Source: Polynucleobacter sp. UK-Kesae-W10
GTDB taxonomy: Bacteria; Pseudomonadota; Gammaproteobacteria; Burkholderiales; Burkholderiaceae
DNA: 64,000 nucleotides
Reading direction: 5' to 3'
Assembly: GCF_018881575.1 (NCBI RefSeq)
Contig: NZ_JACVQB010000001.1
Coordinates: forward strand, 48,986-112,985
The notes under the pieces were generated by a model. The model had not been told where the DNA came from. It searched no databases and saw nothing but the letters and a program-made list of their open reading frames with translations. How positions within the stretch are numbered: position 1 is the stretch's first letter; each line of letters opens with the position of its first letter. Shown here piece after piece: positions 31,371-60,018 of the stretch. The position numbers were made by a program, and so were the translations under genes.

Positions 31371-32445
31371 TCGGTTGTGGCAAGCCGTAACGGCCCAACT
31401 GGGCTAAAGGAATCCACTGAAAATCAGCCCCCAAGGGAGCAACAGGTTGATTCATTTCCACCACCCAAATATGCATCCACAAGCGCCGATGGGTAAAAAC
31501 ATGCTTCACATCAGCATGCCGCTCAAAGCGTTTACAGGCTTTCACCCAAGCCGAAGCCTTCTCTGTCGGCATCGTGATTTCCACTAACTCCTTTAGGTTG
31601 GGCGTATTGCGCTGACTCAGGTCGCTTTTAGGCTCCCAGGGAGTCTCAGGCAGCGACCATAAGCCGCCCCAAATGGCTTTGCTGGCACGCTTTTGCAACA
31701 GAATGGCATTCCCGGATCGAATCAGGAGCATTTCACAATCAAACTCGGGTGATTTTGCTTTGATGGTTTTGTGCGGCAGAGTAAGCACTTGATCACTTAA
31801 GTTAGCTTGGCATTCTTTTTCAAATGGGCATCTTTTCTCGCCACTTAAACAAACTGGCTTACGAGCAGTACACCAGGTAGCACCAAAGTCCATTAACGCT
31901 TGCGTATAGACCGGCATATCTTTTGGCTTACTCGGCAATAATTCATCAGCGATCTGCCATAAACGATCATTAACAGCCTTATCTTGGATGGCGCCCTCTA
32001 CGGCGAAGAGGCGCGCCAAAATCCGTTTGACATTGGCATCGAGAATCGGTGCTCTTTTATGAAAAGCAAACGCGGCAATAGCACCAGCAGTAGAACGTCC
32101 AATGCCTTTTAGTTGCTCCAGTAACTTTGGATCACTCGGAAATACGCCTTCATAGTCACTCATTACCTGCTGCGCACAGGCATGTAAATTTCTCGCGCGT
32201 GAGTAATATCCCAAACCCGCCCACTCAGCTAACACCTCATCAATATTGGCTGCAGCTAATTTTTTAACATTCGGAAAACGTTTTATAAAGCGAGGGTATC
32301 GCTCAAGAACAGTCGCAACTTGGGTTTGCTGCAACATAATCTCAGACACCCAGACGGCATAGGGATCTCGATTCCCCTGCCAAGGCAAGCCTGATCGCCC
32401 ACTCTGTCCATGCCAAGCAATCAGCTTTTGCGAGAAAGTACTCAT
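31315..32445 (-). CDS. mutY: A/G-specific adenine DNA glycosylase MutY
   Basis: Removes adenine opposite 8-oxoguanine. From the ATG at 32445 it has 376 residues: a HhH-GPD catalytic domain with Glu35 in WVSEIMLQQTQ, the hairpin LKGIGRSTAGAI and Asp137 in PILDANVKR; an Fe-S motif; and a C-terminal Nudix-like MutT domain. The four iron-sulphur cysteines at 192, 199, 206 and 212 follow C-x6-C-x6-C-x5-C instead of the usual C-x6-C-x2-C-x5-C (see findings). It overlaps the mutM stop by one base (TGATG), which fixes this start. Its 3' end overlaps rapZ. Confidence 0.96.
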   Translation of the reverse strand: MSTFSQKLIAWHGQSGRSGLPWQGNRDPYAVWVSEIMLQQTQVATVLERYPRFIKRFPNVKKLAAANIDEVLAEWAGLGYYSRARNLHACAQQVMSDYEGVFPSDPKLLEQLKGIGRSTAGAIAAFAFHKRAPILDANVKRILARLFAVEGAIQDKAVNDRLWQIADELLPSKPKDMPVYTQALMDFGATWCTARKPVCLSGEKRCPFEKECQANLSDQVLTLPHKTIKAKSPEFDCEMLLIRSGNAILLQKRASKAIWGGLWSLPETPWEPKSDLSQRNTPNLKELVEITMPTEKASAWVKACKRFERHADVKHVFTHRRLWMHIWVVEMNQPVAPLGADFQWIPLAQLGRYGLPQPIKVLLQGLSLVRGDGLKN

Positions 32446-33281
32446 CAGCGCTTTTGACACACTGGACAAAAATACGTAGAACGCTGCCCTTGCACAATTT
32501 GTTTGATGGGCGTTTTGCATACCTTGCAAGGTTGATCCTTGCGGTCATACACCTTGGTCTGCACCATGAAGTGCCCAGGATCGCCATCGCTATTCACAAA
32601 ATCTTTTAAAGAGCTGCCGCCTGCATCGATGGCTTTTTTCAAAATCAATCTGACTGCAGCAGCTAAGCGTACGCATTGTGGTCGCGTGAGCTTGCCAGCA
32701 GCTTTTGCTGGATGAATGCCCGCCTCGAATAAGCTCTCAGAGCAGTAAATATTGCCCACACCCACTACCGCCTGTCCAGCCAATAAAAATTGCTTAACGG
32801 CAACGCTCCGCTTTCGAGAAGCGTCGTATAAAAGTTGTGCGCCTTGTTCGCTAGCAAAGCCAGGAGAGAAAGGTTCAATACCCAGTTTTTGCAACAGCGG
32901 ATTTTGATCGATCGGCCCTTTGCTATGGGGGTGCCATAAAACGGCTCCAAATTTACGAGGATCGTGCAGACGTAAGCTCAACTTCGCAAACTCAAAGGTA
33001 ACCCGATCGTGCAACTTCAAGGGTTCTGAGAGTGGCAATACTCGCAAGGTTCCAGTCATCCCCAAATGAATCAGCAAATGGCCTGTATCTAGCTCTATAA
33101 GCAAATACTTCCCACGCCGCTCAATAGAGTGGACTTTTTGCCCTGGCAAGAGTTTCGATAAATTGCTAGGGACGGGCCAACGCAGACGTCCATCCAGAAT
33201 TTTGACCGCAGTAATGCTGCGCCCCAAAAGATGGGGGGCAATTCCTAATTTCGTGACCTCTACTTCTGGAAGTTCTGGCAT
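32445..33281 (-). CDS. mutM: Formamidopyrimidine-DNA glycosylase MutM (Fpg)
   Basis: Excises 8-oxoguanine and other oxidised purines and cuts the abasic site. The 278-residue protein starts with the conserved PELPEVE (catalytic Pro2 and Glu3), has Lys58 in RRGKYLLIEL, and ends in a zinc finger (CKVCKTPIKQ ... YFCPVCQ). mutM and mutY, which act on the same lesion, are translationally coupled here through a TGATG junction. It diverges from the TPR-LolB gene across about 35 bases. Confidence 0.97.
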   Translation of the reverse strand: MPELPEVEVTKLGIAPHLLGRSITAVKILDGRLRWPVPSNLSKLLPGQKVHSIERRGKYLLIELDTGHLLIHLGMTGTLRVLPLSEPLKLHDRVTFEFAKLSLRLHDPRKFGAVLWHPHSKGPIDQNPLLQKLGIEPFSPGFASEQGAQLLYDASRKRSVAVKQFLLAGQAVVGVGNIYCSESLFEAGIHPAKAAGKLTRPQCVRLAAAVRLILKKAIDAGGSSLKDFVNSDGDPGHFMVQTKVYDRKDQPCKVCKTPIKQIVQGQRSTYFCPVCQKR

Positions 33282-33316: not shown

Positions 33317-34804
33317 ATGAGCAAATTCACACTTAAATCCTTTTTGCGGGGTTTATTCATCGGCACCCTCACCCTGGGGGCAGGCTTTTCTGGACAACTC
33401 TTTGCCCAGGCCAATGGGATGCAAACGGGAGAGGCGGTGTTTGAAGTGCTGGCTTCCGAAATCGCTTTGCAGCGCGGAGAGGCCGGCCTGGCGTACAGCA
33501 CCTATATGGAAATGGCCCGCCAATACAAAGACCCCCGCCTTGCACAAAGGGCAATGGAGATCGGGATTGCGGGTGGCTCACCCAATTTGGCCCTCCAGGC
33601 CGCCCAAGAGTGGGACAGTCTTTCACCAGCCTCACAAACAAAACCAAAAGAAGTATTAATCACCTTGCTGGCCTTGAGTAATCGCTGGCCTGATACCGTT
33701 AAACCAGCGATCGCATTACTGAGCCAACAAACTCCAGCGCAACAAGAAAATACCTTGTTGCAGTTACAAACTTTGCTAGGCAAAGCAAAAGATGAGTCAG
33801 AAGCGCTCCGCTCCTTTTATGCCATTGCCTCCACTGTCAAAGTTTCTCCAAAGGATCCTGGTCTGCTATACACCTATGCCATGTCCGCTGAAAAAGTGGG
33901 ACGCCTGGATGTGATGGAGAAATCCTTGCGAGAAATTTTGCGTAAAAATCCAAACGACGTAAATGCACTAAATGCACTCGGTTACTCCCTAGCAGATCGC
34001 AACCTGAAATTATCGGAAGCGTTTGCATTGATCAGCAAAGCCCATCAGCTTTCGCCAAAAGACGCTTTTATTTTGGATAGCTTAGGGTGGGTGAATTTTC
34101 GACTTGGTAAAAATGCATTGGCATTGGAACAATTGCAGCAAGCATTCAATCTGTCTCCACAAGCTGATATTGCTGCACACGAGGGCGAAGTGTTGTGGGC
34201 CATGAACCGCAAAACTGAGGCCGAAGAAATTTGGCGCCAAGGTCAAAAATTAGATGCAAATAACCCGACACTACAAGAAACACTGAAGCGTCTCAAGCCA
34301 GACTGGACCAGCTCTGAGCAAGCAAAGACGGGCTCATGGGACGGTCGCTTTGCGGTAAAAGTCATCGGCATCACAGATACCCAAAATCAGGGCGGATCGG
34401 GTGGCTTTACGTTGACGCAAGATCAGCTGAAGGACATCTTAGAGATTCGTAACCCGATGGGTGGATCCATTGCAAAAATTACGATCACTCCTGGTGAAGC
34501 TACATTAGAGCGTGATGGTCAAGTAGTTACTGCGGTTGATGCGGATACCTTAATTCAAAATACTTTGGGACTTCCATTGCCAGCGCGCGGCCTCTCTAAT
34601 TGGCTCAGAGGAGAAGTCAGACCAGGTAGCGAAGCAAGCGTGGAACGCAATGCAAAAGGCCAAGTAAGCAAAATCATTCAAGATGGTTGGAGCCTGGCAT
34701 ACAGCTGGGGCAATAACAATCGTTTAGAGAAATTAACCATGACTCGATCTTCAAACATTGGATCGATCGATATCCGTCTTGTCTTTGATCAAGCGAATGA
34801 GTGA
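33317..34804 (+). CDS. TPR protein fused to an outer-membrane LolB domain
   Basis: One uninterrupted 495-residue reading frame with two parts. Residues 1-32 look like a type I signal peptide (hydrophobic GLFIGTLTLGAGFSGQLFAQA); no lipobox cysteine is present. Residues about 40-325 are tetratricopeptide repeats (for example NPNDVNALNALGYSLADRN and SPKDAFILDSLGWVNFRLG). Residues about 341-491 match LolB: WDGRFAVKV, EIRNPMGGSIAKI, TPGEATLERDG, LPLPARGLSNWLRG and QDGWSLAYSW line up with the E. coli protein. The next gene is ispE, as for lolB elsewhere, which supports the identity. The domain should accept lipoproteins from LolA at the outer membrane. A GTG at 33311 is an alternative start. Confidence 0.82.
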   Translation: MSKFTLKSFLRGLFIGTLTLGAGFSGQLFAQANGMQTGEAVFEVLASEIALQRGEAGLAYSTYMEMARQYKDPRLAQRAMEIGIAGGSPNLALQAAQEWDSLSPASQTKPKEVLITLLALSNRWPDTVKPAIALLSQQTPAQQENTLLQLQTLLGKAKDESEALRSFYAIASTVKVSPKDPGLLYTYAMSAEKVGRLDVMEKSLREILRKNPNDVNALNALGYSLADRNLKLSEAFALISKAHQLSPKDAFILDSLGWVNFRLGKNALALEQLQQAFNLSPQADIAAHEGEVLWAMNRKTEAEEIWRQGQKLDANNPTLQETLKRLKPDWTSSEQAKTGSWDGRFAVKVIGITDTQNQGGSGGFTLTQDQLKDILEIRNPMGGSIAKITITPGEATLERDGQVVTAVDADTLIQNTLGLPLPARGLSNWLRGEVRPGSEASVERNAKGQVSKIIQDGWSLAYSWGNNNRLEKLTMTRSSNIGSIDIRLVFDQANE

Positions 34805-35681
34805 AGCGTATTTTCAGTCTCTGACACTTCGCTCACCAGCAAAGATCAATTTATTTCTGCACATTGTTGGGCAACGTGCAGATGGTTACCACTTGCTTCA
34901 ATCTGTTTTTCAGCTCATCGATTGGTGTGACACCCTCACCCTCAAGGCGATTCCTGAAAATGAAATTCGCCGAATTGGGCCTATTGAAGGCGTTCCAGCA
35001 GAGCAGGATTTGGTAGTCAGGGCTGCAAAATTATTAAAAGATTTTTGCAAGCTTGATTGTGGGGTAGAGATTGGTCTGTATAAGGAAATTCCCATGGGCG
35101 CTGGACTGGGGGGAGGCTCATCTGATGCAGCAAGCACCCTAATCGGCCTAAACGCTCTCTGGAATCTACATCTGAGCAAAGAGATACTCTGCGAACTGGG
35201 CCTCAAGCTTGGGGCAGACGTGCCATTTTTCATTTTTGGGAAAAACGCATTTGTCGAAGGGATAGGGGAGAAAATCCAAGAAATTTCCCTAGAAAATCAT
35301 GACTTTTTGGTGATCTTTCCCAATCAGGGCATCCCCACTGTACGAATTTTTCAAGACCCTCAATTGACCCGAGACCATGCTCCGATTACAATTGATGGCT
35401 TTCTTGCATCGTCGCCCTTAAATCAAACCAATGATTGTCAGGCGGTAGCGATGCGGATTTGTCCTGAAGTGAAGCAAGCTTTGGATTGGATTGGCCAAGC
35501 AGTACCGGGCTCCGTGCCTCGTATGTCTGGCTCCGGAAGTAGCGTTTTTGCCGTCTTAGAACCTAAGACCGACCTCGCAAAACTGGAAAATCTTCTACAA
35601 AATCTTCCTAAAGGGTGGATAGGTCGGGTTGTTCGGGGGCTAAATAAAAATCCCGCTTACAATTTGATTTCTTCAGATTGA
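34797..35681 (+). CDS. ispE: 4-diphosphocytidyl-2-C-methyl-D-erythritol kinase
   Basis: Phosphorylates CDP-methylerythritol in the non-mevalonate isoprenoid pathway. The protein (294 residues from the ATG at 34797) has the GHMP-kinase phosphate loop PMGAGLGGGSSDAAS, the SPAKINLFLHIVGQRADGYH opening (quoted as SPAKINLFLHIVGQR), and a C-terminal RMSGSGSSVFA motif. The start overlaps the TPR-LolB stop by 8 bases, so the genes are coupled. tRNA-Gln begins 5 bases downstream with no terminator between. Confidence 0.95.
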   Translation: MSEAYFQSLTLRSPAKINLFLHIVGQRADGYHLLQSVFQLIDWCDTLTLKAIPENEIRRIGPIEGVPAEQDLVVRAAKLLKDFCKLDCGVEIGLYKEIPMGAGLGGGSSDAASTLIGLNALWNLHLSKEILCELGLKLGADVPFFIFGKNAFVEGIGEKIQEISLENHDFLVIFPNQGIPTVRIFQDPQLTRDHAPITIDGFLASSPLNQTNDCQAVAMRICPEVKQALDWIGQAVPGSVPRMSGSGSSVFAVLEPKTDLAKLENLLQNLPKGWIGRVVRGLNKNPAYNLISSD

Positions 35682-58584: not shown

Positions 58585-60018
58585 ATGCGTCAATTTCTGA
58601 AGAACTTTGCCCTCATTGCCATTGGTCTTGTTGCTGGTGTAGCTGCCACCATCCAGCTCTCCGCAACCGCCCAGCAAGGTTCCCAGCTGCCGCTGGATGA
58701 GCTACGCACACTCTCTAATGTGTTTGCGCAAATCAAACGGGAATATGTTGAACCAATTGAAGACAAGCAACTATTAACAGATGCTGTCAAAGGTATGGTA
58801 AGCAGTCTTGATCCGCACTCTACATTCTTAGATAAAAAAGATTTTGCTGAAATGCAAGAGCAAACTTCTGGCAAGTTTGCTGGTTTAGGTATTGAGATTA
58901 CTTCTGAAGATGGAGTAGTAAAAGTACTCAACCCAATTGAAGACAGCCCTGCTGCACGCGCCGGTCTTCAAGCAGGTGATTTAATTACTCGCTTAGATGA
59001 CAAGCCCGTACGTGGAATGTCACTCGACAAAGCAGTACGGACTATGCGCGGTACACCGGGAACAAAAATTACTTTAACGGTCTACCGTAAGAGTGAGGAA
59101 CGTAGCTTTCCAGTTACGATCACGCGCGCCGAGATTAAAGTGCAGTCGGTAAAAGCCAAAATTTTGGATAACGATATTGCCTGGGTTCGCGTGACGAGCT
59201 TTCAAGAACGTACCGTACCGGATCTTGCAAAAAAACTAACTGATTTAGCCAATCAAGATCCAAAACTCAAGGGCATTATTTTGGATTTACGCAATAACGG
59301 TGGCGGCTTATTGCAAGGCGCTGTTGGAGTGGCAGCTGCTTTCTTACCCCCTGGCGCAGTCATTGTGTCCACAAAAGGTCAAGCACCAGACTCCCAGCAA
59401 GTATTTAATGCAACCCCGGCCATGTACCGCTTAAGCGAGCCAGGCGACCCATTAGCAGGCGTACCTGAGATCTTCAAGAAGCTCCCGATGGTGGTTCTAG
59501 TCAATGCTTACTCCGCATCTGCCTCTGAGATTGTTGCTGGCGCCCTGCAAGACTACAAGCGCGCAACCATCATTGGCAAGACCACTTTTGGCAAAGGCTC
59601 CGTACAAACAGTACGCCCCTTAACCAATGATTCCGCTTTGAAAATTACTACTGCTTACTACTACACCCCTAGCGGCAAATCGATTCAAGCATTTGGCATC
59701 AAACCGGATATCCCTGTAGACCAAAATAAAGATGGGGATCCTGATGACGTATTGATTACGCGTGAGATCGATAGCGAAAAGCATTTGCGCAATAAACAAT
59801 CGGCAGAAGATAAGCTAATTAAAGATCGCGAACAACGTCGTCTCGAAGAAATGCAGCGCATCGAAGAGAAAAACGCCAAGAAGACGCCTGAAGAAAAAGA
59901 AAAAGAGAAGAACAAAAAACCGCCAGAACTTGGTAGTGCTGATGACTTCATGCTTTCTCAGGCTGTAGCCTTTATCAATGGTCAACCGGTGAAGCGCTCT
60001 TCATCTAAGCTTGAGTAA
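58585..60018 (+). CDS. C-terminal processing protease, S41 family (CtpA-like)
   Basis: A 477-residue periplasmic serine protease. An N-terminal membrane segment or signal anchor (7-28) is followed by a PDZ domain (about 98-182) and the S41 catalytic domain (183-400), with Ser312 in NAYSASASEI and a lysine in the IIGKTTFGKGS stretch (331-338) forming the dyad. A basic/acidic low-complexity tail (390-440) rich in Glu, Lys and Arg likely forms a coil, and the end has VAFINGQPVKR. Substrates are unknown; relatives process outer-membrane and cell-wall enzymes. Confidence 0.92.
   Translation: MRQFLKNFALIAIGLVAGVAATIQLSATAQQGSQLPLDELRTLSNVFAQIKREYVEPIEDKQLLTDAVKGMVSSLDPHSTFLDKKDFAEMQEQTSGKFAGLGIEITSEDGVVKVLNPIEDSPAARAGLQAGDLITRLDDKPVRGMSLDKAVRTMRGTPGTKITLTVYRKSEERSFPVTITRAEIKVQSVKAKILDNDIAWVRVTSFQERTVPDLAKKLTDLANQDPKLKGIILDLRNNGGGLLQGAVGVAAAFLPPGAVIVSTKGQAPDSQQVFNATPAMYRLSEPGDPLAGVPEIFKKLPMVVLVNAYSASASEIVAGALQDYKRATIIGKTTFGKGSVQTVRPLTNDSALKITTAYYYTPSGKSIQAFGIKPDIPVDQNKDGDPDDVLITREIDSEKHLRNKQSAEDKLIKDREQRRLEEMQRIEEKNAKKTPEEKEKEKNKKPPELGSADDFMLSQAVAFINGQPVKRSSSKLE

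Follow-up and report, generated by a model that had tools for sequence, protein, structure and literature searches.

A fusion of LbcA and LolB without a lipobox in the genus Polynucleobacter

The locus and its reading frame

The DNA analysed here, referred to as the window, is a stretch of 64,000 nucleotides from Polynucleobacter sp. UK-Kesae-W10 (GCF_018881575.1, contig NZ_JACVQB010000001.1, positions 48,986 to 112,985 of the forward strand). At positions 33317–34804 of the window, an unbroken frame on the plus strand starts with ATG and encodes a protein of 495 residues, in which a type I-like signal peptide is followed by an all-helical part and then by a LolB domain. An earlier note, made from the letters of the window, had described a 495-residue frame with TPR repeats ahead of a C-terminal LolB; the frame is intact, and Pfam places TPR models at residues ~181–283 and LolB (PF03550) at residues 342–492. 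The same note had named ispE as the next gene. A gene with GHMP kinase domains, assigned as ispE, indeed begins at 34797 (34797–35681, plus strand), sharing 8 nucleotides with the 3′ end of the fusion gene (ATGAGTGA), and a tRNA-Gln gene lies downstream of ispE. The divergent neighbour upstream is mutM (32445–33281, minus strand). Farther along the window, the plus strand carries a gene for CtpA, a carboxyl-terminal processing protease that controls the cell wall (58585–60018; phmmer against P. aeruginosa CtpA, E 1e-109). The spacing between the fusion gene and ctpA looks near-constant, at ~24–25 kb, across several Polynucleobacter genomes.

A frame artefact or a mis-joining of two genes, a doubt raised together with the first description, was considered as an explanation of the long frame. 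The same protein was found in 145 of the 151 sampled Polynucleobacter genomes, nearly always as one unbroken frame of ~480–550 codons, and the few partial matches all lie in fragmented assemblies. Because the same frame recurs in the great majority of these genomes, an artefact of sequencing or joining is ruled out.

The two halves of the fusion protein

Judged by sequence, the TPR half of the fusion is a shortened LbcA, the adaptor of CtpA. Among all solved structures, the best match is LbcA of P. aeruginosa (PA4667; E 8.8e-44), and the next TPR protein follows at 1.4e-10. The TPR superhelix (33701–34297, plus strand, residues 129–327) was assigned to the C-terminal TPRs of LbcA by phmmer and Foldseek; residues 138–327 align to residues 350–540 of the LbcA chain (phmmer, i-E 6.4e-39), and the top Foldseek match of the model is LbcA in 7rqf (E 8e-12). 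Fold comparison does not discriminate well among TPR proteins; the assignment to LbcA rests on the sequence matches. Residues 36–128 (33422–33700, plus strand) are the equivalent of the N-terminal helical extension of LbcA (the adaptor domain, H1–H4) and align to chain residues 18–109 of 8sxe, a phmmer match that is weak alone (i-E 0.007) and is supported by the collinear alignment. Alignment with full-length relatives indicated that ~230–250 residues of the middle TPRs are absent, with both the N-terminal region and the final TPRs retained. The fusion accordingly does not contain the 11 TPRs of LbcA, and its helical part has 17 helices, compared with 29 in LbcA (PMC8764530). The earlier view of a TPR protein fused to LolB stands as far as the fusion itself is concerned; it had overlooked that the TPR half is LbcA, an identity to which the phmmer matches, the structures and the order of neighbouring genes all point.

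In P. aeruginosa, LbcA binds CtpA via its N-terminal helical extension, of which helix H1 is required, and its TPR spiral is thought to hold the substrates (PMC8764530, PMC11021448). PA4667 has been shown to be a lipoprotein, CtpA has a type I signal sequence and resides in the periplasm (PMC8764530), and lbcA and lolB share an operon (PMC6050968). The fusion resembles PA4667 (7rqf, 8sxe-h) in the match to the CtpA-binding extension, in the C-terminal TPRs, in the presence of CtpA in the genome and, as judged from relatives and from the P. aeruginosa operon, in its place directly before lolB, whereas it differs in the missing middle TPRs, in the fused LolB and in the lack of a lipobox, the last being mostly true of other Burkholderiaceae as well. 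The CtpA encoded in the window is the presumed partner of the LbcA part, and CtpA was found in all 20 Polynucleobacter genomes tested. Since the LbcA part is without the middle TPRs, it may activate CtpA or deliver substrates differently. NlpI–Prc of E. coli likewise combines a TPR adaptor with a C-terminal processing protease, but NlpI is unrelated in sequence and has no LolB part. Among other genomes, one Burkholderiaceae genome (99% complete) has LbcA and CtpA and no recognisable LolB, and two reduced genomes of 1.2 Mb keep LolB and CtpA, LbcA not being found there.

The LolB domain (34337–34792, plus strand, residues 341–492) was assigned by PF03550 (E 1.2e-24; 87.5 bits, cut-off 23.7) and by comparison of a structural model with crystal structures. 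PF03550 also matched in all 14 genus members tested; against the NCBIfam lolB equivalog TIGR00548, the fusion scores 44.6 bits, which is below the cut-off of 59.6. An AlphaFold2 model built on a 51-sequence alignment (mean pLDDT 88.9, pTM 0.77) contains the helices of the LbcA part followed by a barrel of strands with two helices. Residues 335–495 of the model form the LolB barrel, with Z 18–19 and an rmsd of 1.9–2.4 over 147–151 residues against LolB crystal structures, and the C-terminal part therefore does take the fold on which the first description depended. Its suggestion that a standalone lolB be sought elsewhere was followed in the complete genome of the window, where no second lolB was found, the sole other match having an E of 0.2 and an internal stop. 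Each of the 40 Polynucleobacter genomes in the family sample, the window's genome included, contains exactly one LolB.

Residues were mapped on a sequence of E. coli LolB in which Thr33, Trp52, Leu68, Met107 and Trp117 are numbered as in PMC10368991 and the hook-region stretch agrees with the 1iwm alignment. The hook residue of the fusion, Met381 (34457–34459, plus strand), aligns to Leu68 of E. coli LolB, and among the fused LolBs examined this position is always M, V, I, L or F. The position of Trp117 is Trp, and that of Trp52 is Leu, in all fused LolBs examined. In E. coli, a polar or charged residue at position 68, W52P and W117A all harm LolB function, and the hook residue is required for proper localisation (PMC10368991). 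The exchange of Trp52 for Leu, at a position where W52P is defective in E. coli, together with the equivalog score under the cut-off, may speak against LolB function. Compared with LolB of E. coli and its relatives (PF03550; 1iwm, 8cm1, 8orn), the fusion shares the barrel fold (rmsd ~2.0–2.4 over ~150 residues), the hydrophobic hook, Trp117, the position beside ispE and the status of sole LolB of the genome, whereas it has no lipobox and no cysteine, places LolB at the C-terminus of a longer polypeptide and has Leu in place of Trp52.

These differences bring in an alternative in which the LolB part no longer inserts lipoproteins and serves as a lipoprotein-binding arm. It would deliver lipidated substrates, namely cell-wall hydrolases and mis-sorted lipoproteins, to CtpA, and insertion would be left to LolA alone, in the manner of the bifunctional LolA of Caulobacter. 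LbcA is the CtpA adaptor and the known CtpA substrates of P. aeruginosa include several lipoproteins (PMC6050968, PMC11021448), a bifunctional LolA has been described from a species without LolB (PMC11784454), and both the loss of Trp52 and the low equivalog score would fit such a role. However, the hook is hydrophobic in every fused LolB, Trp117 is retained, the LolB part is as constrained as the LbcA part and the genome has no other lolB, and a LolB part reduced to binding is considered unlikely.

Loss of the lipid anchor and history of the fusion

The N-terminus of the fusion, MSKFTLKSFLRGLFIGTLTLGAGFSGQLFAQANG, is a type I-like signal peptide (33317–33406, plus strand, residues 1–30; pLDDT <50) without lipobox or cysteine, as had been noted at the outset, and the 495 residues contain no cysteine anywhere. 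In none of 68 fused proteins do the first 60 residues contain a strict lipobox, and beyond residue 60 all 68 are free of cysteine. A loose motif (AISC, AMSC or FSGC) in three of the 68 was considered as a hidden lipobox and rejected, because it is not conserved and precedes a plausible signal peptidase I site. A strict lipobox is present in 23 of 28 separate LolBs of Burkholderiaceae, and the remaining five have a near-lipobox (TAGC, LGAC or FSGC). LolB of Pseudomonas, likewise encoded by a separate gene next to lbcA, also has a lipobox. LbcAs of Burkholderiaceae are without a lipobox in 26 of 28 cases; by the same lipobox test, LbcA is often a lipoprotein in other Burkholderiales and in Pseudomonas. 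In the alignment, a short linker (34298–34336, plus strand, residues 328–340) occupies the place of the signal peptide and lipobox of the relatives' separate lolB. As the fusion starts with the LbcA signal peptide, which is mostly plain in Burkholderiaceae, it has lost the lipid anchor of LolB. As read from these alignments, the fusion joined two adjacent genes, retained the LbcA signal peptide and lost the LolB lipobox; by signal-peptide criteria, the predicted product is exported and is not lipidatable at an N-terminal lipobox cysteine.

The distribution of the fusion was examined at several taxonomic levels. All 117 Polynucleobacter genomes of at least 90% completeness have it, and representatives of other Burkholderiaceae genera with both genes at the locus have lbcA and lolB separate and adjacent, which answers in the affirmative, for Polynucleobacter, the earlier question of whether the fusion is fixed. 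Of 80 loci taken from genome contigs, 18 that are Polynucleobacter-like carry the fusion and a contig end truncates one more; in the 61 others the two genes are not fused. No other unbroken match spanning both halves occurs among the matches listed for the order sample (200 genomes) or the class sample (369 genomes), and single fusions in species outside these samples are possible. Matches in Pseudomonas, which tblastn had joined, were rejected as fusions, because a stop lies between lbcA and lolB.

In a tree of the C-terminal part of LbcA, Polynucleobacter forms one group (support 99/98), to which the Burkholderiales family f18 is adjacent with weak support (83/62). The LbcA of f18 is equally short and is unfused, and f18 may represent a stage before fusion. 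At the five f18 loci, and at one further locus that looks alike, the unfused LbcA has ~340 residues; the f18 gene in the place of lolB encodes a separate protein that keeps a lipobox-like cysteine and is unrecognised by Pfam. Two genera of other small-genome Burkholderiaceae (g21 and g22, five loci) have shortened, very divergent LbcAs together with divergent LolBs, and the shortening of LbcA in these genera is apparently independent.

Median dN/dS between close pairs, in values that are rough because dS is near 1, is 0.03 for the LbcA extension, 0.04 for the TPRs, 0.03 for LolB, 0.09 for the linker and 0.26 for the signal peptide. Purifying selection is thus strong on both halves. Within the mature protein, constraint is weakest in the linker, whose value exceeds those of both domains; over the full length, conservation is lowest in the signal peptide, and many relatives have a plausible signal peptidase I site at its end. 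The lower constraint on the linker and the presence of CtpA would suit a fusion that is a precursor only, in which a periplasmic protease, CtpA or another, cuts the linker to release a separate LbcA and a soluble LolB. However, the linker is short (~12–16 residues), lies between two ordered domains in the model and has no conserved motif in the alignment, making such processing more doubtful than the substrate-binding role considered above.

The fusion might also be held to the membrane or the wall by other means, namely an uncleaved signal peptide, binding of the TPRs to an outer-membrane protein, or peptidoglycan. TPRs are binding modules, and the earlier suggestion of tethering through TPR binding to a membrane partner may hold; a tether would remove the mis-sorting problem of a soluble LolB. 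On the other hand, the poor conservation of the signal peptide and its plausible cleavage site do not favour an uncleaved form, which would retain the protein at the inner membrane, and LbcA has no known partner beyond CtpA and its substrates. Taken as a whole, attachment by these means is the least probable of the alternatives.

Proposed function and significance

The fusion, a genus-wide joining of the adjacent genes lbcA and lolB, is probably a functional lipoprotein insertase that naturally has no lipid anchor and is borne by a CtpA adaptor. The same genome also encodes LolA, a LolC/E-type protein and CtpA. In the proposed mechanism, the fusion would still serve as the LolB of these cells: LolA would pass on lipoproteins coming from the LolC/E-type transporter, and the LolB barrel would insert them into the outer membrane via its hydrophobic hook without a lipid anchor. 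The LbcA part would bind and activate CtpA, placing an insertase and a protease adaptor in one molecule. In place of a lipid tether, the LbcA part or its partners, the membrane affinity of the hook, or the handover from LolA would have to provide correct outer-membrane targeting, and mis-sorting could be avoided by tethering through the LbcA part, by the affinity of the hook, or by the absence of Lpp-type lipoproteins that are toxic when mis-sorted.

Soluble LolB of E. coli (mLolB) takes lipoproteins from LolA (PMC10368991, PMC9457489), at the cost of mis-sorting to the inner membrane (PMC10368991, PMC9457489; reviewed in PMC11784454), and soluble versions of lipoproteins, LolB included, have been reviewed as functional in multicopy (PMC11784454). 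Since soluble LolB takes lipoproteins from LolA and stays functional in multicopy, an unanchored LolB is biochemically plausible. Both mLolB and the fusion are without a lipid anchor, but mLolB is an engineered laboratory construct, whereas the fusion is a natural protein, present in single copy and fixed across its genus. Outer-membrane insertion without an anchored LolB is also a feature of Caulobacter; in that bacterium a single LolA performs both tasks without any known LolB, whereas Polynucleobacter has LolA and a LolB domain.

A more far-reaching proposal, tentative and somewhat unlikely, is that lipoprotein insertion and CtpA proteolysis are coupled, such that one complex would receive each new outer-membrane lipoprotein and either insert it or hand it to the protease, and the anchor would be needless as the protease complex would provide the targeting. 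If this coupling is true, the conserved adjacency of lbcA and lolB in other Beta- and Gammaproteobacteria would be a sign of it as well, there acting between separate proteins. As far as the sequences indicate, the fusion could represent either a functional coupling or a tolerated accident between neighbouring genes in bacteria with small genomes.

A literature search found no paper on a LolB–TPR or LbcA–LolB fusion, and Polynucleobacter and LolB were mentioned together only in unrelated places of one paper; beyond the shared operon, no paper found in the search highlights a link between lbcA and lolB. LolB and LbcA themselves are known, and what is new is their fusion, with a traceable evolutionary history. 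The lipid anchor of LolB is believed to guard against insertion in the wrong membrane, and soluble E. coli versions work but were tested from multicopy plasmids (PMC11784454, PMC10368991). Polynucleobacter, a freshwater and mostly free-living genus with, by sequence, a single unanchored chromosomal LolB, would therefore provide a natural experiment on LolB anchoring, making the question of why LolB is lipid-anchored directly testable. In addition, the fusion suggests a connection of the Lol pathway with the LbcA–CtpA protease, whose adaptor gene stands beside lolB in many Beta- and Gammaproteobacteria.
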